DNA of 36,392 bases from a virus. The stretch is taken from IMG/VR virus record IMGVR_UViG_3300037225_001211, positions 1 to 36,392 of that record. One strand, 5' to 3'. Position 1 is the stretch's first letter. Every line of letters starts with the position of its first letter. Under the pieces are notes generated by a model, which made no database searches, was not told where the DNA came from, and worked only from the letters and a program-made list of their open reading frames with translations. The translations under genes and the position numbers were made by a program. Shown piece by piece: positions 14,038 to 36,392 of the stretch.

Positions 14038-15507
14038 TCAAAACCCGGCCGTGATCCGTTGCCGGCGCCGGCTTTTTTCCCTGGTTACCACGAACGTCTG
14101 ACCGCCCGGCCCTTTTGCCGCGTGCTCGGCCAATGCATATGCCCAGAAATGGTCGGCATGACCGGTTGCCTCGGTGCTGTCCGCGTCGTACCTGGTGTTG
14201 CCGGCAACCGTCACAATGCGGCGGATCGAGTGGAAGCTCTCCCGGATCACGGTCTCGCCCGGAATGCGGCTCCGGCAGTCCTCAAGCGCGTTTTTGGCGT
14301 CGGCCGCCAGGGCTTCCTTCACCGCGTTGGTGAACGTCACGCCCTCGATGCGGCTCTCGCCGTACTTCTCTCGCGCCTGCTCTTCGAGCGGAATGCCCAT
14401 GCCTGTCTTGTCCAGGCACCCGCGCCGCAGGCGGGGCAACTTCATGATGCTGTCCAAAAATTGCAACTGGATGGCGAAGCGGGTTTTTTCAAAGGCGCGC
14501 ACGAGCCTGGTGTATCGCACATCGCCCAACTTCTGCAGCAACCAGAACACGCTCATGTCGCGGCTGCGGGCAATGTCCCAACCGAAATACAAATCGCCTT
14601 CCTCGACGTTCATCAGCTCATCGAGCGTCATAATCAGGTTCGGCGCTTCGGCGCCGGAGATTATTTCGAACGCCAGGAACGCGGTGGCGCTGTCGACCGC
14701 GTTGCACATGAATTCTTCCTGCCACACGTCTTCGCTGCGGCAATTCGCGTGCAGATCCTCAAGCCACTTTTTCCGCTCCGCCTCGGTGGTCGGCCTGCCG
14801 TATATTTTGTCAACGATCCCGTCTTTGACCGCGTCCACGATCGTAACGACGTGCCTTTGCCATCCAGTCTTTCCCGCTTCGGTGTCCCGGCAGAACTGAT
14901 AAAACAGCCCTTGCCGCCCATGATGCGTACTCAGTATGCGTATCGGGTATCCCCACATGGCCGTGGGCTGCGCGGCTTTCCACATTGCGGGCTGGTCGTC
15001 GTGCCAGGCTGCCTCGTCCCAAACGACCTTGCCGCCCTTGCTGCGGAACCGTTTCGGGTTGCTCGTAAGCGCAAAAATCTTGCCGCCGTTTTTGAACTCG
15101 ATGCACAGGGCCTTGATGTCGTTCTCGCTGTCGAGCATCACCGTTCCCACGCTCTCGGCGACCGCATTGGCGATCTTCGCCCACATTGCGCAATAGTCAA
15201 TGTATTCGCGCGCCGCACTTTCGTCGGCGCTGGTGAAAAAGACTTTTGTTATCGGGCGCCCGGGAACGTATTGTCTGCGCGAAATGATGTCGCGCACATC
15301 TTCGTAACTCTGCACATAGGTGGCGCCGATTCGGCGGGATTTCTCCCAAATCTTAATCATGGAGCAGTCGGCAAGCCAGCGAAGTTGATAATCAAGAAAA
15401 TAGGCGCGGGTTGCGATCGTCTGCTCACCTAATTTTCCCCCTCTCCCTTTAGGAGAGGGCGGGGTGAGGTCGGTCGCCTTGGCCCGGGTTGAGGTCTTCT
15501 TATGCAT
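14038..15507 (-). CDS. terminase large subunit, Mu gp28 family
   Basis: A 489-residue packaging motor. The ATPase has the adenine-binding DYQLRWL, a Walker A-like EKSRRIGATYV (about 55-65) and Walker B-like KVVWDEAAWHD. The nuclease domain opens with LYFGWDIARSRDMSVFW. It cuts and pumps DNA into the prohead through the portal. The ATG at 15505-15507 overlaps the stop of the small terminase by eight bases (ATGCATAA). Residues about 12-27 (TDLTPPSPKGRGGKLG) are encoded by a family-A repeat inserted in frame before the conserved domain. I see no in-frame start after the repeat, so this stretch appears to be translated. Confidence 0.92.
   Translation of the reverse strand: MHKKTSTRAKATDLTPPSPKGRGGKLGEQTIATRAYFLDYQLRWLADCSMIKIWEKSRRIGATYVQSYEDVRDIISRRQYVPGRPITKVFFTSADESAAREYIDYCAMWAKIANAVAESVGTVMLDSENDIKALCIEFKNGGKIFALTSNPKRFRSKGGKVVWDEAAWHDDQPAMWKAAQPTAMWGYPIRILSTHHGRQGLFYQFCRDTEAGKTGWQRHVVTIVDAVKDGIVDKIYGRPTTEAERKKWLEDLHANCRSEDVWQEEFMCNAVDSATAFLAFEIISGAEAPNLIMTLDELMNVEEGDLYFGWDIARSRDMSVFWLLQKLGDVRYTRLVRAFEKTRFAIQLQFLDSIMKLPRLRRGCLDKTGMGIPLEEQAREKYGESRIEGVTFTNAVKEALAADAKNALEDCRSRIPGETVIRESFHSIRRIVTVAGNTRYDADSTEATGHADHFWAYALAEHAAKGPGGQTFVVTREKSRRRQRITAGF
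15430..15471. repeat. palindromic repeat, family A, copy 5, inside the terminase coding region
   Basis: AATTTTCC-CCCTCTCC-CTTTA-GGAGAGGG-CGGGGTGAGGT. Unlike the other copies it lies within a gene, where it adds a Pro/Gly/Lys-rich peptide near the terminase N-terminus without breaking the frame. Confidence 0.8.
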
Positions 15508-15928
15508 TCGCCGGCGTCGGTTCGATGCCGAGCAGTTGCTCCATTGTTTTGAGCACGTCGTCCGGATTTGCCTTTTTGTCGCCGTCTTTCCCTTTTTGAT
15601 TCGCCACTTCCTCGTAGTCCTTCACCTTTTTCACGTCATTGATAAGCGCGTGTGCCATGTACATGCGGCCGGGATCGACGCGGACCCCCGCGCGCAGATC
15701 GTCGCGGATGCTGCGCAGCAGCTCTTTACCGAACTCGTAGAGCTCCTCGTGAAAACTTCGGCGCGAGGAAAGATATTGCGCTCTTTTCTCCTCCCAATTT
15801 CCTTCCGCTTTCCAATTGCGAATCGTCTTTTCGCCCAGGCGCAATCGTGATGCAATTTCCAGAATGCCGCACTGTTCTATTACGTAAAGGCGCTCCGCTT
15901 CCACTCCGTATCCCTCTTTTTTAGCCAT
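15500..15928 (-). CDS. terminase small subunit-like protein (DUF1804)
   Basis: A 142-residue product. The N-terminus MAKKEGYGVEAERLYVIEQ leads into an HTH (about 22-45: GILEIASRLRLGEKTIRNWKAEGNW), typical of small terminases that recognise packaging sites. A helical oligomerisation region follows (about 50-115), ending in a lysine-rich linker and a short C-terminal segment. It is directly upstream of and overlaps the large subunit gene. In Mu-like phages the small subunit recognises the pac region near the left end. Confidence 0.8.
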   Translation of the reverse strand: MAKKEGYGVEAERLYVIEQCGILEIASRLRLGEKTIRNWKAEGNWEEKRAQYLSSRRSFHEELYEFGKELLRSIRDDLRAGVRVDPGRMYMAHALINDVKKVKDYEEVANQKGKDGDKKANPDDVLKTMEQLLGIEPTPANA

Positions 15929-16166
15929 TGAGACTTTCCTCCAAAATCTTGAGCCGTTCGGCGCTCTCGCGAATCCTGGTTACCGCCGCGCACATGCGGC
16001 CGCAGGCCAGCGCGATCTTGTCGGTCTCTATGGTTTCTATTTCCAGCCACGCGCCGAGCTTCTCACGCAGCACGGTGCGAAGAAGGTTCGCCTCCATCTT
16101 CGCCTCGCGAATAAGGTGTTCCTCAACAGCTATCTGGCTGCGCAGGGCAGCCCGCTCCATATTCAT
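15921..16166 (-). CDS. small coiled-coil late protein
   Basis: An 81-residue, almost fully helical product with heptad patterning (ERAALRSQIAVEEHLIREAKMEANLLRTVL and a C-terminal RIRESAERLKILEESL). AAAGGAA precedes the ATG. It overlaps the small terminase by eight bases. Its location matches the small gp26-like genes of Mu-like phages between the lysis/membrane genes and the terminase, but the sequence alone gives no function. Confidence 0.6.
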   Translation of the reverse strand: MNMERAALRSQIAVEEHLIREAKMEANLLRTVLREKLGAWLEIETIETDKIALACGRMCAAVTRIRESAERLKILEESLNG

Positions 16167-16178
16167 CGTGGTTCCTTT

Positions 16179-16562
16179 CTACTCGGACTTGATCTGTTTT
16201 CGCACGAGAGGACAGTTCATGTTCGTTTCGATTTTGCCGCAGAGGTTAGCAATCTGCCCTCCCATGAACTCCACGGATTCTGCGAACTTGTTGAGGGTTT
16301 GAAAATTTTCGCTCGCCCGCAAGCTTTGTTCCTTCACGATCGAGCTGAATAGTTCCTTTTGCTGTTCGAGGATCTGTTTAAGTACGGCTATATTTTCCTC
16401 GCCGCGCTGTCCCTGTTGCGAGATCACCGACTGGAACAATTCCTTCTGCTGTTTAAGAATCGTATCGAAAAACCTGAGCGTCACGAGCCAGATCACAAAA
16501 ATTATCGCGCCAAAACCGGTTAACTTGACCAACGCTGCAACCGACGTCAGGTCTATTCCCAT
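16179..16562 (-). CDS. membrane-anchored coiled-coil protein (DUF2730/Mu gp25-like, possible spanin-type)
   Basis: A 127-residue product starting MGIDLTSVAALVKL. It has one transmembrane helix (about 10-32, GFGAIIFVIWLVTLRFF) followed by a long coiled coil containing two QKELF(Q/S)S(V/I) units 38 residues apart (about 38-45 and 68-76), which suggests an internal duplication. An N-terminal anchor plus long coiled coil is the layout of DUF2730 proteins and of inner-membrane spanins. I chose the ATG at 16560-16562, six bases after AAAGGA. It is the first gene of the leftward late operon. Confidence 0.65.
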   Translation of the reverse strand: MGIDLTSVAALVKLTGFGAIIFVIWLVTLRFFDTILKQQKELFQSVISQQGQRGEENIAVLKQILEQQKELFSSIVKEQSLRASENFQTLNKFAESVEFMGGQIANLCGKIETNMNCPLVRKQIKSE

Positions 16563-16632
16563 GGCGATCCTTTCTTTGGTGCGAGCAACGAGCGAGGAGA
16601 CTGATGGGCGCAAAGCGCCCATCTGACCACAA

Positions 16633-16661
16633 ATAATACCTCAATTTTTCCCCCAAGTCTA
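16633..16661 (-). promoter_or_regulatory. candidate leftward late promoter
   Basis: On the minus strand, TAGACT (16661-16656) and TATTAT (16638-16633) are exactly 17 bases apart. The -35-like hexamer lies inside the left arm of a 10-base inverted repeat. The predicted start is about 60 bases before the first leftward late gene. Confidence 0.55.
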
Positions 16662-16693
16662 TTGCACCGCGCAATGCGTCGCTCAATAGACTT
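16655..16693. promoter_or_regulatory. inverted repeat between the divergent late operons
   Basis: AAGTCTATTG (16655-16664) and CAATAGACTT (16684-16693) form a perfect 10-base inverted repeat around a 19-base centre. Each arm contains the -35-like TAGACT of one divergent promoter. A dimeric late activator or repressor could bind both arms. Confidence 0.6.
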
Positions 16694-16715
16694 AATACAA
16701 AAATCCTCGTATCTT
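16687..16715 (+). promoter_or_regulatory. candidate rightward late promoter
   Basis: TAGACT (16687-16692) and TATCTT (16710-16715) with a 17-base spacer, the mirror image of the leftward promoter. The predicted start is about 50 bases before the protease gene. Confidence 0.5.
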
Positions 16716-26966: not shown

Positions 26967-28017
26967 AGTCTCCCTCGTCGTCGACGGCAAGCAGCATGAC
27001 GATTTTATCGCCTATACGGTGGACTCCGATTTGTTCCTCGCGGCCGATGCGTGGAGCTTTGACCATTACAAAGTCGACCAGGGGTTCGCCGCCGGGCAAA
27101 AGGTGCAACTCTTCGTCAACGGTCACCCGGAACTAACGGGGATCGTTGACCGCGTTGAGATGAGCTACGACAAAAAGGGCAAGAAGCTCGTGGTCTCGGG
27201 CCGCGACATGATGGGCCTCGTATGCGATCATCACTGCGAGCATTTCTCGAAAGACAAGATTCTCGACGGGAAAACGATTCTGCAAGTCGCGCAGATGCTC
27301 CTCGCCGACGTCCCGCTCATCGATCGACACATAAAGATCGTGGGCTTCGACGGAGCGACGGGCCGCTTCGACGCCAAATACACGTATGAGAAGATCGACC
27401 TGGGCGAAACGGTATTTGATGTGATTCGCCGGTTCGCCGACGGCCGCGGGCTGCTTTTCTGGTGCGAACCCGACGGCACGTTTACGTTGGGGAAACCAAA
27501 GGACAAGGGCGCCGCAATATTCTCCCTGCGTTGCAAGAAAGACGCACCGGAGCAGAATAACGTTCTCTCCGCGACGATCGCGTCTGATATCTCGCAATCG
27601 TATTCGAGCGTTACGGTGAGCGGACAATGCCAGGGCCTCGACGAATGGGATCTCCCGACAACGGTAAATGTGAAGGCAACCAAGGCACTCAGCGTGCCTG
27701 ACGAATTCCCTTTCTACAAGCCCCTGGTGCACAAAGTCAACAAAGACACTACAAGCGCGAAACGTGAAGCGTCCAGGCTCCTCGAACAAAGCAAGGCGCG
27801 GATGCTGTCATTCGAATACGTCGTCAAGGGTCATAGCCAGAACGGGAAAAACTGGACCGCAAACGAGATCTGCCACATCGAGGACGACAATTTCACGCTC
27901 AACGGGCATGCGCTCTCCGGAGATTTTCTCATCTACGGCCGCACGTTCTCGCGTGACAAATCAAAAACGACCACGACCCTTAAGCTGGGGTTGCCCGGGG
28001 TAATTCTCAGTGAATGA
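26956..28017 (+). CDS. baseplate hub protein, Mu gpP (gp44) family
   Basis: A 353-residue product. The opening MLDKVSLVVDGKQHDDFIAYTVDSDLFLAADAWSF, the QKVQLFVNGHPELTGIVDRV strands, and the FADGRGLLFWCEPDGTFTLGKPK segment fit the gpP family, which is the T4 gp27-like trimeric hub connecting tube and spike. It follows gpN as in Mu. Confidence 0.9.
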   Translation: MLDKVSLVVDGKQHDDFIAYTVDSDLFLAADAWSFDHYKVDQGFAAGQKVQLFVNGHPELTGIVDRVEMSYDKKGKKLVVSGRDMMGLVCDHHCEHFSKDKILDGKTILQVAQMLLADVPLIDRHIKIVGFDGATGRFDAKYTYEKIDLGETVFDVIRRFADGRGLLFWCEPDGTFTLGKPKDKGAAIFSLRCKKDAPEQNNVLSATIASDISQSYSSVTVSGQCQGLDEWDLPTTVNVKATKALSVPDEFPFYKPLVHKVNKDTTSAKREASRLLEQSKARMLSFEYVVKGHSQNGKNWTANEICHIEDDNFTLNGHALSGDFLIYGRTFSRDKSKTTTTLKLGLPGVILSE

Positions 28018-28363
28018 TTTCGCCATAGATTGGGCGATCGACTCGATGTCGCTGGACAGCGGAGACGCTCGGGCGAATAACGTTTACATAAGCGTCAAGC
28101 TGCGGCAGGGAGCGTATTTCCGCAATCCAAAGCTCGGAAGCCTGCTGCATACAATAAAGAAACTCGATTCCGATGGCCTCGCCAATGCGGTCGACTTTAC
28201 AAATGCAGCGCTCAAGTGGCTCGTGGACTGCGGCCGCGCCACGTCTACCAGCGTTATCGCCGAGAAAGACAACGACACGCAGGGGCAATGCAACCTGGCT
28301 ATCACAGTGAATTGGGCAACGAGCTCGCCGGTCACCTACAAGACATTTTTCAAGGTGGTATAA
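28010..28363 (+). CDS. baseplate protein, Mu gp46 family
   Basis: A 117-residue gp25-like baseplate wedge protein. It starts at GTG 28010 (MNDFAIDW) and contains VYISVKLRQGAYFRNPKLGSLL, then ALKWLVDCGRATSTSVIAE and a final set of strands. The 'L-x-x-G-x-x-x-x-x-P-x-x-G-S' pattern matches GP46 proteins. It overlaps the gpP stop and the gp47-like start. Confidence 0.87.
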   Translation: MNDFAIDWAIDSMSLDSGDARANNVYISVKLRQGAYFRNPKLGSLLHTIKKLDSDGLANAVDFTNAALKWLVDCGRATSTSVIAEKDNDTQGQCNLAITVNWATSSPVTYKTFFKVV

Positions 28364-29382
28364 TGGACTATTCAATGACGTTTGACCAGCTCCTCGCGGA
28401 CATTCTCCAGGACTACACCAACCAGTCTCCGGACACGGACATTGCCGAGGGGACGCTCGTGCATATAAAAGCGGCCTGCATCGCCTCTGCTCTCTGGGGC
28501 ATTTACAAATACCAGGACTATCTCGCCAAGTCGCGCTTTCCCGACACGTGCAGCGACGAGGATCTCCGCCATTATGCCGCCGTGTACGGGATCACGCCGA
28601 CCCCTGGCGAGTCCAGTGCTGAGCTTCTTGCAGATGTTCTCAACCGCCTGCAAAATCCTCCTGCGGGCGGCAGCAAGGCCGACTATGTGGCATGGGCGAA
28701 GAGTGTTTGCGTCGCAACCTGGGCGCCCTGGGCAGCGAGCACCACCTATGCCCCTGGCGACGTGCGCAAGCCGTCGATGTCGAATGCCTTCCTATATATA
28801 TGTATTGTAGCCGGTGAGTCGGCCGGGACGGAACCCTCGTGGCCAACGGCTGACGGCGGAACTGTTGTCGACGGAGGCGTTCACTGGAAAAAATGGAACC
28901 TCGATACCTATGTTGAGAATGTAAAAGCCGTGTTTGTGGACCCGCTTTCCCGCGGACCCGGCACGTTCGATATCATCGTCACAAGCGACAGCATTGCCGC
29001 TGGCCTGGAAGAGGAACCATCACTCCAGCTTTTAAACGCCATTTACACGTACATCAACGGCAACGACATCCGCCCTCTCGGAGACTATGATTTCGGCGTG
29101 CAGGCGCCGATAAAGAACGAGGTTGCCGTCGCGATCACGGTGCCGGACGGTACCCCGCAAGCCGTTAAAGACTCCATCACCGGCGACGTGCAAGCATACA
29201 TGCGATCGCTGGGAATCGGCGTTGCCCTATGGCCGTCGCCGCTGAGCGCCGTGTGCGTCAAGTACGGCGTGCCGCAGTCAACGCTGGTCACGCCGAGCGC
29301 GGTTGTAAACTGCTGGCCCACGGGCAACGCGGGACATTATCAGCGGATCTGGGATCTCTCAATCACCATTTCCGAGGCGTAA
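28363..29382 (+). CDS. baseplate wedge protein, Mu gp47 (J) family, with carbohydrate-binding-like insert
   Basis: A 339-residue product. The N-terminus and 'SRFPDTCSDEDLRHYAAVYGI' fit the J family, as do the C-terminal part (DPLSRGPGTFDIIVTSD; PIKNEVAVAITVPDGT) and the 'GGSKADYVAWAKSV' signature at 103-115. Between this signature and its normal continuation, residues about 118-178 are inserted: ATWAPWAASTTYAPGDVRKP, then YICIVAGESAGTEPSWP, VDGGVHWKKW. These Trp/Gly/Pro motifs resemble CBM5/12-like modules (DNA 28714-28896). ATG overlaps the previous stop (TAATG). J-type proteins form the ring linking the baseplate to the fibres. Confidence 0.88.
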   Translation: MDYSMTFDQLLADILQDYTNQSPDTDIAEGTLVHIKAACIASALWGIYKYQDYLAKSRFPDTCSDEDLRHYAAVYGITPTPGESSAELLADVLNRLQNPPAGGSKADYVAWAKSVCVATWAPWAASTTYAPGDVRKPSMSNAFLYICIVAGESAGTEPSWPTADGGTVVDGGVHWKKWNLDTYVENVKAVFVDPLSRGPGTFDIIVTSDSIAAGLEEEPSLQLLNAIYTYINGNDIRPLGDYDFGVQAPIKNEVAVAITVPDGTPQAVKDSITGDVQAYMRSLGIGVALWPSPLSAVCVKYGVPQSTLVTPSAVVNCWPTGNAGHYQRIWDLSITISEA

Positions 29383-29384
29383 AC

Positions 29385-29909
29385 GTGTTTAGAGCCATTA
29401 TTGATACATTCACAGGTGCAGTGAGCAAGATCGCGCGGTTCAGCGCGACCGTCACTCAGGACGAATACGTGAATGACCGGGAGGCGTTCCAGCACTATGG
29501 ATTCGCGTCGCGTCCGCAGAAAGGCGCAGAGGGGATTTACATAAAGGAAGGCGGCATGGTTGTCATGGTGGCCGACGATGACCGCCGGTACCGCATCGCG
29601 CTGGAAAGCGGCGAGGCCGCGATCTACACCGACCAGGGCGATAAAATCCACATCAAGCGCGACGGCAATATTTTAATTCAAGCGTCTTCTTCCGTCAAGG
29701 TGGTCTCTCCCAATGTCGAGTTTTTGTCCGCTGGCGATGCTGTAACCGAGGGCTTGGCGCAAAAAATGCTGAATGGGCAAACGTTCCAAACTTGGGCCGA
29801 CACGCATTTTCACACGGGCGGTTTCGTCGCTCCCACATCAGTCCCCGTTGAAACGAGCGCGGCGTTTCCGCTGCCGGTTTTGTCGAACACCGTCAAGGCG
29901 TCGCCATGA
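29385..29909 (+). CDS. baseplate spike, Mu gp45 (gpV-like) family
   Basis: A 174-residue product. Start is GTG 29385 with GAGG seven bases before. The N-terminal OB-like part (AFQHYGFASRPQKGAEGIYIK) precedes strands of the triangular beta-helix (YRIALESGEAAIYTDQGDKIHIKRDGNILIQAS). At the C-terminus is DTHFHTGGF, an H-x-H motif like the iron-binding apex of Mu and P2 spikes, which pierces the outer membrane. In Mu this gene precedes gp46; here it follows gp47. Confidence 0.87.
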   Translation: MFRAIIDTFTGAVSKIARFSATVTQDEYVNDREAFQHYGFASRPQKGAEGIYIKEGGMVVMVADDDRRYRIALESGEAAIYTDQGDKIHIKRDGNILIQASSSVKVVSPNVEFLSAGDAVTEGLAQKMLNGQTFQTWADTHFHTGGFVAPTSVPVETSAAFPLPVLSNTVKASP

Positions 29910-32900
29910 GCGCAGCATCCCTACGCGAGGCAATCATCGCCCAGATGGGGCATGTGCACGACGCAACCGGCCGCGCGTATCGCACCGCCTATGCCTGGGG
30001 AGACGGCGCGACTCCCACAAATCCTGCGACCTGGTCGGCGGGATACACCGACCCAAAAGCATTTGCCGAATGCATCGCTGATGCCATCGAACCCGAGATA
30101 CAGAACCGCGTCGACCTAAATGTCAAGGAGCGGTTCGACCCGACCGCCGCGCTCCCCGCCTCGCCTACGGTCGGCGACGTTTACCTCGCAACGGCCACGG
30201 CCCATGGCTGGACGGCGGGCAATTTGTATACCTGGAACGGCGCAACCTACGACGTAACCGTTCCATGCGCCGGCATGCAGATCTGGATTGTGGCCACCGG
30301 TACCGCGTCGATCTCCACGGGAATCGAATGGGTTGATCTTGAGGCTTCGAGCGGGAGCCTGAGCGGAACGGTTTCTCCGAACACCCTCGCAATGGGCGGA
30401 CCGCTGGGCAGTGGGCTTGTCGATTCCCCAATAGTATCCGATATTGCTGCGCATGGAAAACTTTGGATTGGTTACAATTTTGTAGGGGCCGGTGCTGGCC
30501 CGATCTATAACGGCGATTTGTGCCTGAATTTTTGTCCTGAAAATGGATATGGTGTTGCGTTTACATGGGCAGATGCGGAATCTTTTCGCATTCAGTCTGA
30601 TCTGTCTGTGCTAATTAATAATGGCAACTGGCTCGAATTCGGTGAACTCAACCATTATATTCGCAACAAACAAAATGGCACCACGCTCGCAAATTCCGAT
30701 TTGGAAATAGGCAGTTCCTACGGCAATACGGTTTTCCTCGCGGGAGGCGGTTGCTACACTGCGTCGGAATGTCTGCGAGTCGGGGAGCAGTTCTTTGGCT
30801 TATCAGGAGATGGATACGGCATCCAAGCACCCGGCATCTGGTCAACTGGCCTTGCGTCAAAAGTGGTTAAAACCGATGCGAATGGGAAGCTTGTCGGGTG
30901 CACAAACCTAGCCGACGTTGCGTATCTCACGACCGTCACGCCCCACAATATTCTCTCCACAACCCACGGCGACACGCTCGCGGACACCGTGGTGCGCGGC
31001 GATCTCCTCACTGGTAACGCAACACCGAAATGGGGACGCTTGGCAAAGGGCACGAGCGGGAACCTTTTAGGGTATAATGCTACAGATGTGGTTTCGAATA
31101 CCCTTGCGGGGTGGGGCATTCAGGCGACGCTCACGAATCCGGTGACAGGCACCGGGGCGCAGTATTATGTGCCTCTGTGGGGTGCGGGCGGGACGAGGCT
31201 GGGGAATTCGATTTTACAGCAGGACGCTGCCGGAACTACTATCGGTATCGGGGGTGTACCAGACGATGCGTTCACTGCAAAATTCTACGGAGACGCCCTT
31301 TACTTGGGGCACAATACCAAGTACGGATTAATTCCATTGGTACTCGGATTCTCTTATAATCAATACCCGGCAATCACCTACAACTGCCAATTTCAAGTAG
31401 GGCCCCCGGCGGGATACAAGTACTACGGAAATGATTATGCTTCTATGATAATGGCTAACTACGATTATGGGAGTTTGCAGCCTGTGGCGTGGAATTTTAG
31501 AAGTGCCCCTAACGGCACGGCTGGAAATGCGATATCATGGACAACGGTTGCAAATTTGTTTAACAACGGGAATTTTTGGATTTATGGGTCAGATGTAAAC
31601 GGAATGGGGTTTAGTGTTGTCAATGCCGCTGCAACAACGGGGGCATCACAACAGGGGCTGATTTATCAGTTGGGTTCAACTGGATATTCTATAGCCGACT
31701 GGCCCAGCGCATTTCTAATTGAGGGGCAGGCCGCTGGAGGTACTACAATTGATGCTTTCTCCGGTGCGCTGAGTTTACAAACGGCACGCGTGACTCGCCT
31801 GAAAATTTCTAACGCTGGTAGCATAACTATTCCTGGTCTATCCAGCGCAGGCATTCTCTGCAACGCCACCACTACGGGCCTCATCTCCTCTCACGCCTGC
31901 GGCAACACGCTCTTGCAAATAGGCAATTCCTCCGGCCAACTCGCCGATTGCGGCACAGTCGTCTCCAACACCTATGCCATGTATTCCGGTGGTGTTTTGA
32001 CTCTCTACAATTCGACGGCCAGCAGCGAAGGAGTCCGCGTCAATACGAACGGCACTGCCAATGGGTCCACATCTATTGATGCACGCGCAACCGGTGCAGG
32101 AACGACAAATACGGCGCTCTATGCGGATGCGGAAAACGCGGGAACAAATTGGGGACTGTATGTCAACGCCGGGAATGCGCAATTTAACGGCTTGGTAGGT
32201 ATTGGCGGTGCCCCCTCGATGTCTTCGGGTATAGACATCTACGCGAATGTGACATCTAGCAATCTACTTTACATAAAAAACAACAACACTCTTTACGGCT
32301 CTATAATTACGTTTCCTATGGGTTACATAGGGGATTGGGGTAGTGCTGCGAGCGCCTGGAGCGGAGCATACGGAAATATCGCACCAGCAAGCAAAACCGG
32401 CCTGGTAGGTAGTACCACTGGACTTTTTCTCACTACGATGGGCGGGAATATTCAGTTTGCTACGCATGGTCAAACGACCGTGGCGCTAGAAATCGCAGAT
32501 GGGTCAATTACTGTGCGACAATCGTTTTCTATTGCTAATCTTTCGGTGGCGGGCGTCGTCCAAAACTCGGTGACAACGGGAACGCTCACATCTCACGTAT
32601 GCGGCAACGGCTATGCACAAATGGGTAATTCCTCCGGCCAGCTCGCAGATATGGTCATTCGCCAGGCGGGAACCGACATAGGCATCGGCACGACGAGCCC
32701 ACAAACCACTCTCAGCGTAAACGGATCTCTATCAACCAAAACTCCTGTTGTAAGCGGGACCAACTACACAAGCGGATCGCCATACGTTATAACCACGACA
32801 GATTACACGGTGATTTTTACAAATGCCAGTGCCGACCAATATGTGACTATGCCAAGCGTAAGCACCGCTGCGGGAAGAATAATTTGTTTGCAGGCCATGG

Positions 32901-33055
32901 GACAGGGTGGGTTTAATTTGATAATGACAAATGGTAACCTTTTTATGCCACCGGGAGGGACTACTCCTACAAATATAATTTTGAATACCAACAATTACAC
33001 GACGTGCATATTGCATAGTGATGGAACATACTGGAGAACGTTGTCGAGGAGCTAA
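29906..33055 (+). CDS. tail fibre protein
   Basis: A 1049-residue fibre. Residues about 1-70 (MSAASLREAIIAQMGHVHDATGRAYRTAYAWGDG) form a probable virion-binding part, followed by a phage fibre domain (TVGDVYLATATAHGWTAGNLYTWNGATYDVTVP). From about 150 on it is a Gly/Ser/Asn-rich beta structure with two copies of a 35-residue unit (about 647-681 and 881-915; both contain SH-x-CGN and NSSGQLAD). 'DIGIGTTSPQTTLSVNG' is typical of fibre shafts. No C-terminal chaperone domain is visible. From about 30450 the DNA looks more A/T-rich than neighbouring genes, consistent with exchange. Overlaps gp45 by four bases. Confidence 0.85.
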   Translation: MSAASLREAIIAQMGHVHDATGRAYRTAYAWGDGATPTNPATWSAGYTDPKAFAECIADAIEPEIQNRVDLNVKERFDPTAALPASPTVGDVYLATATAHGWTAGNLYTWNGATYDVTVPCAGMQIWIVATGTASISTGIEWVDLEASSGSLSGTVSPNTLAMGGPLGSGLVDSPIVSDIAAHGKLWIGYNFVGAGAGPIYNGDLCLNFCPENGYGVAFTWADAESFRIQSDLSVLINNGNWLEFGELNHYIRNKQNGTTLANSDLEIGSSYGNTVFLAGGGCYTASECLRVGEQFFGLSGDGYGIQAPGIWSTGLASKVVKTDANGKLVGCTNLADVAYLTTVTPHNILSTTHGDTLADTVVRGDLLTGNATPKWGRLAKGTSGNLLGYNATDVVSNTLAGWGIQATLTNPVTGTGAQYYVPLWGAGGTRLGNSILQQDAAGTTIGIGGVPDDAFTAKFYGDALYLGHNTKYGLIPLVLGFSYNQYPAITYNCQFQVGPPAGYKYYGNDYASMIMANYDYGSLQPVAWNFRSAPNGTAGNAISWTTVANLFNNGNFWIYGSDVNGMGFSVVNAAATTGASQQGLIYQLGSTGYSIADWPSAFLIEGQAAGGTTIDAFSGALSLQTARVTRLKISNAGSITIPGLSSAGILCNATTTGLISSHACGNTLLQIGNSSGQLADCGTVVSNTYAMYSGGVLTLYNSTASSEGVRVNTNGTANGSTSIDARATGAGTTNTALYADAENAGTNWGLYVNAGNAQFNGLVGIGGAPSMSSGIDIYANVTSSNLLYIKNNNTLYGSIITFPMGYIGDWGSAASAWSGAYGNIAPASKTGLVGSTTGLFLTTMGGNIQFATHGQTTVALEIADGSITVRQSFSIANLSVAGVVQNSVTTGTLTSHVCGNGYAQMGNSSGQLADMVIRQAGTDIGIGTTSPQTTLSVNGSLSTKTPVVSGTNYTSGSPYVITTTDYTVIFTNASADQYVTMPSVSTAAGRIICLQAMGQGGFNLIMTNGNLFMPPGGTTPTNIILNTNNYTTCILHSDGTYWRTLSRS
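31844..31948 (+). repeat. fibre internal repeat, copy 1
   Basis: A 105-base segment of the fibre gene similar to 32546-32650. Both encode a unit with SH-x-CGN and GNSSGQLAD. Confidence 0.65.
32546..32650 (+). repeat. fibre internal repeat, copy 2
   Basis: Second copy of the 105-base unit; diverged at the nucleotide level but with the same length and key residues as 31844-31948. Confidence 0.65.
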
Positions 33056-33059
33056 GGTG

Positions 33060-33164
33060 ATGAGAATAATTCACATCATTCGAGATTTGGTCGTCGTCGC
33101 CCTCGGTTTCGTGGCTATGATGATCCTTATCCTTTCCGGCTGGACAGGACTCGACAATGATTAA
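33060..33164 (+). CDS. 34-residue membrane peptide downstream of the fibre
   Basis: Read directly from the sequence: MRIIHIIRDLVVVALGFVAMMILILSGW then TGLDND. One hydrophobic segment (about 10-28). The ATG is five bases after the fibre stop with AAGG just before, and the stop overlaps the next ATG by eight bases. It may be co-translated with the following gene. Function unknown. Confidence 0.45.
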   Translation: MRIIHIIRDLVVVALGFVAMMILILSGWTGLDND

Positions 33165-33687
33165 AATTTACGTTCCCCTCGCCTCTCACGGTGAACAGCG
33201 GCAATACCTGGCCGGGCAGGCACGGGACGCGCTTTATGCTCAGACCATCACGATCACTGCGGACCACATCGTGGAGTGCATCACCGAAGGCGCGATTCCG
33301 TCGCAACGTGTTTTCAACCCGGCGCGTATGTCGGGCGAGGCGGCGTCCCGCAACCTCTGCATCGAGCGAGCGATCGCAGCGGGCGAGGAGTTTTTTGTCA
33401 TGGCGGACCGTGATCGCGTCGCATTTGCAACGGATACAGTAGAGCGCCTTCTCGCGGCGATCTCCGCAGACTCGACAATCGGCATGGTGAGCGCCGTCGA
33501 CCCACGCCACTGCCGGTTTGTGGATGTCGGTTTCGTTATCTGCCGTCTCTCGGCGTTTCGGCAGATTGTTCCTATTGTAAACGTTTACGGTGAGTGCCTC
33601 TGCCGGGAGATCAACGAGGCACTGGGGAAAATAGGATTCAAAGCGGAGTATCTTTCTCAAAACATTCTTTTCACACGGGAGGTTTAG
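33157..33687 (+). CDS. glycosyltransferase-like (GT-A fold) protein, short (putative)
   Basis: A 176-residue product with the start of a nucleotide-sugar transferase: MIKIYVPLAS strand, then ARMSGEAASRNLCIERAIAAGEEFFVMADRDRV. The last part matches the GT-A 'A-R-N-x-G-x-x-x-A-x-G-x-x-(I/F)-x-x-x-D-x-D' pattern, with Asp-Arg-Asp as a candidate metal site. A shorter C-terminal half than usual leaves out most of the acceptor-binding region. It sits where Mu-like phages often have fibre chaperones. It could modify fibre or host glycans; this is inference. Confidence 0.5.
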   Translation: MIKIYVPLASHGEQRQYLAGQARDALYAQTITITADHIVECITEGAIPSQRVFNPARMSGEAASRNLCIERAIAAGEEFFVMADRDRVAFATDTVERLLAAISADSTIGMVSAVDPRHCRFVDVGFVICRLSAFRQIVPIVNVYGECLCREINEALGKIGFKAEYLSQNILFTREV

Positions 33688-34553: not shown

Positions 34554-36044
34554 ATGTCTTACACTCCCTTAAGCCGCCACTACAGCGTTCTGAAGCAACT
34601 GTTTCCGCTCGCTCTCGCCGGAGACCTCGACGTCGACCTAGACATCGAGGGCCTCGCGCTAGATCGCGCGGAGGATTGTGCGCGCCGGCTGCATCAGGAA
34701 TTGTTTCCGGATACGTCGAGCTCGATTGATCCAATAGTATTTCCGATCGGCGGCGTACCCTGGGTACAGAAAACGTCGGCGGTGGAAAACTGGCAAGTTG
34801 TCAAGATGTCCGCCACTGGGCAATATCAAGCTGCGGTGGCAGACACTTGTTGGGGTGTGTCGTCGGATTTTGGTGCAACGTGGTCGGTGAGAAGTTCAAG
34901 CCAACTGGAAGATATTTCAATATCAGATGATGGTTCGTTGGAATTCCTAGTTCAATACGGCGATTCCTCCTCTTATTTCTCGACGGATCATGGGGTCAAC
35001 TTTACGGCCCGAGGAAGGATTGGGTCGTTCGACAATCATATAACGTCTTGCTCAATGTCAATAGACGGAGAATATCTATTAGCGACTTCCGTGGAGGGCC
35101 CTTTCAAATCGGCTGATTTTGGCGCTTCATGGACACCCGTAACCTTGACGGGATTTACGAGCGTTCGAGGTTGTGACGTGTCTCAAGATGGCTCCATACA
35201 AGCACTCACCGACCACGGCGGATATATCTGGATTTCTAGAGACCACGGAGCGACATGGACGCAAAAAGCAACTGTACGAAACTGGCAGCTCATAAAAATG
35301 TCGCCAAGCGGACAGTATATGCTTGCCGGGAACGGGGAAATCTACTTTGTAGGCTCCGGGTCTCAGATTTTTGTTTCGTCCGATTGTGGAGATACCTGGA
35401 CACCTATTGTTTCATCCCCCACATCAAATTGGACGGGGTTTGCCGTGTCTTCTGACGGAAAAACGATGATGGCCAGTCAAGACCGCGGTTATATCTGGAT
35501 GTCAATCGATTATGGTGTAACCTGGGTGGCTGATTCTGCGTCGGGTAATACAGTGTGGCGCGGCTGCGCCATGTCCAAGGACGCAACCAAACGAACCGCC
35601 GGAGTGTATGGTGGCTATCTGTATACCTCAGTTGTAAATATGCCACCAAATTCCAATCTCGGCGCCCTTGCGTCGTGGGAGCGCACCTACGGTATCATTG
35701 GCGACCCTACAACGTCTGACCAGCAGCGCGCTGGTGTTGTTGTGGCGAAGATGCGAAACCTTGCAGGCCTCAATCGGTCAGCCTTCTACCGTATCGCCCG
35801 GGCACTCGGTTACAACACCTATCCAAGCGCTGTTGATCCCCACATTCAAATCCTCGATGGTATTTATCTTCCGTTCCGAGTTGGTATCGGGATGGTTGGC
35901 GACCCTGTTTACTTCGGCGATTCCGGCTACTCAATTTTTAGTGTGTACGTCAAGGGTACCGGCGTCGCCTCTGATTCAGTTTTACAGGCCCTTTTCAACG
36001 CCCAGAAGCGGCCGTCCTGCGAGTTTGTTTTCCAGGACATTTGA
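34554..36044 (+). CDS. baseplate protein, Mu gp48 family (DUF2313), with inserted Asp-box beta-propeller
   Basis: A 496-residue product. Residues 1-57 (HYSVLKQLFPLALAG ... LHQELFPDTS) are the N-terminal half of a gp48/YmfQ protein, and 368-496 (LGALASWERTYGI, QQRAGVVVAKMRNLAGLNRSAFYRIARALGY) are the C-terminal half, which normally follows within a few residues. Between them lie about 300 residues with six S-x-D-x-G-x-x-(W/F) Asp boxes (starting at 103, 143, 186, 228, 275, 317) alternating with seven S-x-D-G-like strands, so a six- to seven-bladed propeller. gp48 binds the gp47 ring, so the propeller would be displayed on the baseplate. AGGA precedes the ATG. It is separated from gp47 by six genes, unlike in Mu. 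Confidence 0.82.
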   Translation: MSYTPLSRHYSVLKQLFPLALAGDLDVDLDIEGLALDRAEDCARRLHQELFPDTSSSIDPIVFPIGGVPWVQKTSAVENWQVVKMSATGQYQAAVADTCWGVSSDFGATWSVRSSSQLEDISISDDGSLEFLVQYGDSSSYFSTDHGVNFTARGRIGSFDNHITSCSMSIDGEYLLATSVEGPFKSADFGASWTPVTLTGFTSVRGCDVSQDGSIQALTDHGGYIWISRDHGATWTQKATVRNWQLIKMSPSGQYMLAGNGEIYFVGSGSQIFVSSDCGDTWTPIVSSPTSNWTGFAVSSDGKTMMASQDRGYIWMSIDYGVTWVADSASGNTVWRGCAMSKDATKRTAGVYGGYLYTSVVNMPPNSNLGALASWERTYGIIGDPTTSDQQRAGVVVAKMRNLAGLNRSAFYRIARALGYNTYPSAVDPHIQILDGIYLPFRVGIGMVGDPVYFGDSGYSIFSVYVKGTGVASDSVLQALFNAQKRPSCEFVFQDI

Positions 36045-36136: not shown

Positions 36137-36177
36137 AATTCTTGAACTAAACGGCAGAAATTCTTGAACTAAACGGC
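36137..36177. repeat. right-end tandem repeats, candidate transposase binding sites
   Basis: AATTCTTGAACTAAACGGC occurs exactly twice (36137-36155 and 36159-36177) with a period of 22 bases. In Mu, MuA sites R1 and R2 at the right end are also in tandem with 22-base spacing. Read inward from the end, each copy begins CGTTTAGTT, similar to the CGTTTCAYT start of the Mu consensus. The exact terminus cannot be fixed; a CA at 36190-36191 is one possibility. Confidence 0.65.
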
Positions 36178-36236: not shown

Positions 36237-36392
36237 CTAGTGACTCTCATCATAGTCTTTAATCTTCCGCACCACCCTCGCCTCAGCCTCGTTGAACATC
36301 TCCTGGATAAAGGGGTCATGAAAATTGTAGGTCCTTTCCTCGAAGCTCATGGAATCCATCCTGTCGAACAGCTGCTGCTTCGCGTTTGCGAT
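36237..36392 (-). CDS. flanking gene, C-terminal 51 residues (probably host)
   Basis: The stop TAG is at 36239-36237 and the frame is open to the window edge. The visible end (RMDSMSFEERTYNF, FIQEMFNEAEARVVRKIKDYDESH) is helical and charged. I recognise no family. It lies beyond the transposase-site-like repeats and is most easily explained as a host gene beside which the prophage inserted. Confidence 0.55.
   Translation of the reverse strand: MANAKQQLFDRMDSMSFEERTYNFHDPFIQEMFNEAEARVVRKIKDYDESH

Follow-up and report, generated by a model that had tools for sequence, protein, structure and literature searches.

An Asp-box propeller predicted inside the gp48-type baseplate wedge protein of a Mu-like phage

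The last gene of a Mu-like phage raises the question of what some 310 residues of regularly repeated sequence are doing in the middle of a baseplate wedge protein. The window, that is, the whole stretch of DNA analysed, is an IMG/VR virus record of 36,392 bases, and it is Mu-like by gene content. Mu-type genes for the transposase (MuA), an AAA ATPase in the place of MuB, the Mu portal, the terminase and the tail sheath were present, and homologues of gp44, gp46 (28010-28363), gp47 (28363-29382) and gp45 followed downstream, succeeded by a fibre-like gene of 1049 aa. Judged by these genes, the carrier is a bacterial virus related to phage Mu, with a Mu-type tail gene set that otherwise looks complete. 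The features of the gene in question, in window positions, are as follows.

34554-36044, + strand: gp48/propeller ORF, one uninterrupted frame of 496 aa, 1,488 bases open, without stop or frameshift
34554-34724, + strand: gp48 N-terminal part, residues 1-57, matched by phmmer against the 180-aa gp48 proteins of relatives down to 6.7e-9 and by the relatives' profile
34725-35651, + strand: inserted module, residues 58-366
34752-34787, + strand: N-terminal strand GVPWVQKTSAVE, predicted to close blade 7; aligned with the N-terminal strands GNTWVQKGTVQS and GVTWTQRDSVRP of fibre modules; short strand at model residues 16-17
34788-34904, + strand: blade 1, Asp box SSDFGATW at residue 103, predicted strands
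34905-35036, + strand: blade 2, Asp box STDHGVNF at residue 143, predicted strands
35037-35156, + strand: blade 3, Asp box SADFGASW at residue 186, predicted strands
35157-35279, + strand: blade 4, Asp box SRDHGATW at residue 228, predicted strands
35280-35426, + strand: blade 5, predicted strands, Asp box SSDCGDTW at residue 275; one loop exceeds that of the fibre modules by 7 residues
35427-35552, + strand: blade 6, Asp box SIDYGVTW at residue 317, predicted strands
35553-35636, + strand: blade 7, three inner strands predicted, no Asp box, outer strand supplied by the N-terminal one
35652-36041, + strand: gp48 C-terminal part, residues 367-496, matched by Pfam and by the relatives' profile
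35955-35978, + strand: place of the missing docking-loop stretch (Mu residues 133-155), by alignment with Mu gp48 and relatives
36042-36044, + strand: stop codon of the final gene ahead of the presumed right end of the phage

The ORF was assigned by profile comparison to the Mu-type gp48 proteins (baseplate wedge protein 3, BW3; PF10076, DUF2313), with a propeller inserted. Pfam Phage_Mu_Gp48 matched residues 362-423 only (8e-6; 26.2 bits, below the cut-off of 37.4), and Pfam thus sees only part of the family in this protein, in which the domain is split. PHROG 203 (baseplate wedge subunit) was matched in two stretches at 4.5e-14. Relatives were obtained through gp47, eight of them with gp48 ORFs of 174-218 aa, and a profile built from these eight, leaving the window protein out, matched that protein twice, at residues 9-57 (2e-11) and 362-467 (1.1e-12). 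The same profile matched the solved Mu gp48 (PDB 9ki1) at 3.3e-14, and either flank retrieved the gp48 ORFs of the same relatives. No match was obtained by tblastn of the whole 496-aa protein against phages. A DUF2313/gp48 protein split by about 300 residues, as put forward in the preliminary description, is borne out by this two-part match. In Mu, the N-terminal helices of gp48 join a three-helix bundle with two gp47 (PMC11915804). Wedge proteins of this type assemble with two copies of gp47 and one of gp46.

The two parts are separated between ELFPDTS and ALASWER, close to the junctions previously proposed. In Mu numbering the site falls between gp48 residues 58 and 62, with FPSTS ahead of it and LGEWE after, and only a few residues stand between the two sides in Mu and the relatives. 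By alignment, the position of the insert is the loop between the N-terminal helices of gp48 and the WER helix. With 80 loci added by a second scan with the gp48 profile, about 129 gp48 ORFs were examined, a number in which some genes are counted twice; the site was interrupted in the window's gene alone and empty in about 120 other Mu-type gp48 ORFs, and the insert is known from one genome. The loop tolerates some length, since a few of these proteins (L050, L023) hold 7-10 extra residues at the site. Another gp48 (L008, 10965-11621) carries about 36 extra residues with a repeated GDGLL unit behind the WER helix. The C-side flank NMPPNSNLGALASWER was considered as a duplicate of the ELFPDTS stretch and rejected: the profile matches both (columns 43-51), and their DNA is unlike by eye (8/21 bases).

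The preliminary description placed gp48 next to gp47, which is wrong for this genome. The order in the window is gp47-gp45-fibre-three small ORFs-gp48, so that gp45, the 1049-aa fibre-like gene and three small ORFs lie in between, whereas relatives show gp47-gp48-fibre (for example, L013). No second gp48 was detected in the window with the relatives' profile, and ORF 34554-36044 is the sole one. The fibre-like protein (29906-33055, 1049 aa) gave a weak DUF2793 match, with a DUF2793-like N-terminus, and a relative was found for its first 180 residues only (L003, 6.6e-18). A 176-aa ORF between fibre and gp48 (33157-33687) had no convincing family match and resembles, by eye, a fragment of glycosyltransferase A type. 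Searches of viral contigs for close relatives, with the window protein and gp44 as queries, turned up either nothing or L003 alone, a fragment that stops within the fibre gene. Just past the last gene stand two exact direct repeats, TTCTTGAACTAAACGGC, at 36139-36155 and 36161-36177, 22 bases apart; the window holds no further copies (with up to 3 mismatches allowed, 0.11 were expected). By analogy with R1 and R2 of Mu, the pair may be bound by the transposase and mark the phage's right end. Past the presumed right end, an open frame at 36240-36392 on the - strand is cut off where the record stops; it is possibly flanking host DNA.

The insert is predicted to be a seven-bladed Asp-box propeller. 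S-x-D-x-G-x-T-W boxes recur at blade spacing, as is characteristic of such propellers: there are six, with starts 40-47 residues apart, as previously described. Seven S-x-D-G strands had also been reported, which was slightly generous; seven S-x-x-G strand motifs are present, of which four read S-x-D-G (residues 124, 169, 210 and 299) and three are variants (SATG at 86, SPSG at 250, SKDA at 341). Pfam BNR matched the protein above its cut-off (5.3e-8; 32.1 bits against 27) and Sortilin-Vps10 fell just under (9.6e-8; 31.7 bits against 33). Membership of the Sortilin/Vps10 family was rejected on that score and on the count of blades, seven as opposed to the ten of that fold.

An AlphaFold model of residues 55-369, from a 10-sequence alignment, gave the propeller that had been anticipated, with strands for seven blades (pLDDT 86, pTM 0.86). 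The blades are four-stranded by prediction, some outer strands being short or missing in the strand assignment. The model covers these residues only; MAFFT joint alignments misplaced the C-terminal halves in the propeller or in the N-terminal part, and the full chain, modelled from the single sequence, reached pLDDT 33. Foldseek retrieved seven-bladed propellers from the PDB (E about 1e-13, TM about 0.7) and many viral proteins, one of them at 4e-22. The module opens with the strand GVPWVQKTSAVE, the counterpart of the outer strand in every other blade, and stops once the third strand of blade 7 is complete. Six Asp boxes suffice for seven blades because the outer strand of blade 7 is the N-terminal one; with such a closure, the start and the end of the module are expected next to each other, an arrangement well suited to a place within a loop.

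The insert belongs to a kind of propeller already present in phages, and its nearest kin are found in fibre-like proteins. Searched alone against phages by tblastn it gave weak matches only (best E 0.3). A pattern search of viral contigs detected the module in fibre-like ORFs (L139, L140, L142, L146, L147, L151 and L152), two of which have typical fibre parts, Peptidase_S74 (L139) and collagen repeats (L152). The module of the window aligns with those of the phage fibre-like ORFs over the full length, with the same boundaries and 30-38% identity. Seven blades, six Asp boxes (in most), the N-terminal closing strand and the edges are shared; the difference lies in the setting, long fibre-like chains there and the inside of a wedge protein here. 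One large fibre-like ORF (L147, 352-3237) contains the same Asp-box module three times in tandem, and every copy has a closing strand to itself.

Base composition sets the insert apart. Positions 34725-35639 have a GC of 0.498 and a GC3 of 0.492, compared with means of 0.559 (SD 0.034) and 0.684 (SD 0.072) in the other 35 genes of the window, none of which lies below it; the insert is 1.8 SD (GC) and 2.7 SD (GC3) under those means. The lowest GC and GC3 among the window genes are as expected for an acquired module, and the insert looks like one, in line with the A/T-richness noticed earlier. The fibre-like gene is also low (GC 0.526, GC3 0.547). Low GC is usual for fast-exchanging adhesion genes.

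The wedge protein differs from Mu gp48 in a further respect. The Mu fibre docks on a gp48 loop, residues 133-155 (PMC11915804), and the stretch aligned with these residues is missing from the window protein (0/21 profile columns filled). It is missing too from two gp48 proteins without a propeller (L073 and L111), and its absence is therefore neither specific to the window protein nor strictly defining for gp48. A tie between the loss of the loop and the presence of the propeller is weakened by the same two proteins, and as a clue to function the absence is suggestive at most.

Taking fold, position and kinship together, we consider it fairly likely that the propeller is a surface-binding domain carried on the wedge. 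With both ends of the module in the closing blade, the wedge core could still fold. The Mu wedge has one gp48 each, six per particle (PMC11915804); the same stoichiometry here would put six propellers on the baseplate, where, turned outwards, they would attach to a glycan or protein on the host-cell surface, adding to the fibres or partly replacing them. Such binding would be felt directly by the wedge, which is believed to splay and to initiate contraction of the sheath. The insert would probably turn a normally structural part of the baseplate into a cell-binding one. The presence of the separate 1049-aa fibre-like gene counts against this reading. A stronger version, in which the wedge protein is the main receptor-binding protein, having lost the fibre-holding loop and gained six outward propellers with no relay through fibres, seems unlikely; if it held, contact with the receptor would bear straight on the wedge, the trigger of sheath contraction.

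Propellers often serve as protein-protein hubs, and the domain might instead be a docking platform for a virion protein, namely the 1049-aa fibre or one of its three small neighbours, that replaces the docking loop and makes no contact with the host. The missing Mu docking-loop stretch would fit, as would the different, DUF2793-like N-terminus of the fibre and the upstream position of its gene. Proteins L073 and L111, which lack the loop and have no propeller, speak against it, as does the location of the module's nearest relatives in fibre-like proteins that are likely adhesive; a docking role is accordingly judged improbable. Less probable still is a catalytic domain that breaks down sugars on the host surface, glycosidase-like in the manner of GH74 enzymes or sialidases. 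Weak matches were obtained to xyloglucanases, with the module profile (1e-15), and to the BNR glycosyl hydrolase family NF045728 (1.9e-14), yet the 53.6 bits of the latter stay far under the curated cut-off of 175 for that family (GH33/GH74), and the glycosyl hydrolase matches fall in the shared Asp-box repeats. GH74 enzymes consist of two tandem propellers, as opposed to the single one here, and by our own reading the sequence has no sialidase F/YRIP motif.

An artefact, be it a chimeric assembly or a decayed gene that yields no working protein, is a very improbable source of the insertion. The insertion occurs in one genome only, the record is metagenomic, and the base composition shifts at the edges of the insert, all of which count towards an artefact. 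The 1,488 bases, however, form a single open frame, the edges of the module are those of the fibre modules, and the gene is the sole gp48 beside an otherwise complete-looking set of tail genes. The insertion shows that, in the simplest contractile baseplates, the core wedge protein can take up an entire module, probably a binding one, in one of its loops. Should the propeller indeed attach to the host, the phage would offer a direct test of how receptor contact reaches the wedge.

Fusions of gp48 with further domains were found elsewhere. In another Mu-like phage (L057, IMGVR_UViG_3300017944_000001), ORF 14058-15545 consists of a gp48 family domain followed by a C-terminal propeller (module profile, 5.4e-12), and the neighbouring fibre-like ORF (15558-16694) also has a propeller (9.3e-13), which hints at module exchange between gp48 and the adjacent fibre-like gene. 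That phage shares with the window a gp48 and a BNR-like propeller on one chain, but there the propeller comes after gp48, is of another subtype, and the docking loop is kept (20/21 columns). In L080 (5929-7617), gp48 is followed by a C-terminal concanavalin-like (LamG-like) domain at 1.3e-4, below the cut-off, and in L022, L042 and L044 by about 390 more residues; these four extended proteins measure 562-642 aa. From the internal propeller and the independent fusions in L057 (C-terminal propeller) and L080 (lectin-like domain), gp48 is seen to be a recurrent site for adhesive domains.

The protein resembles Mu gp48 (PDB 9ki1; PF10076) in that both flanks are of the same family by profile and the setting is a Mu-like phage; it differs in the insert of about 310 residues, in lacking the fibre-docking loop and in its gene, which lies behind the fibre gene and does not adjoin gp47. 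The propellers of phiKZ gp131C (seven-bladed) and of the receptor-binding protein (RBP) of Staphylococcus aureus phage phi11 (five-bladed) are located at the baseplate periphery and are proposed receptor binders (PMC4901313), but belong to separate receptor-binding or peripheral proteins, whereas here a wedge subunit holds the insertion. In eCIS fibres, propellers are combined with collagen-like shafts (PMC12923769). The 'baseplate wedge initiator' of S-SSM7 (BFVD E3SL21) has a propeller-like region in its predicted structure (Foldseek 5.9e-10, TMq 0.70); this phage is a T4-like cyanophage, and its protein, known here from the predicted structure only, has no sequence match to the module profile. 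The gene behind that match was not found in three stretches of the S-SSM7 record. No report of a propeller inside a Mu-type wedge protein was found in the open-access literature. The preliminary description regarded a propeller on a wedge protein as a new way to display a binding domain; this is plausible, and partly anticipated by the propeller of L057, the lectin-like domain of L080, phiKZ gp131C and the phi11 RBP. Binding domains of a similar sort are frequent on the tails of phages. As far as could be searched, the combination and its place appear new, the domain and the protein that carries it being both of known kinds.
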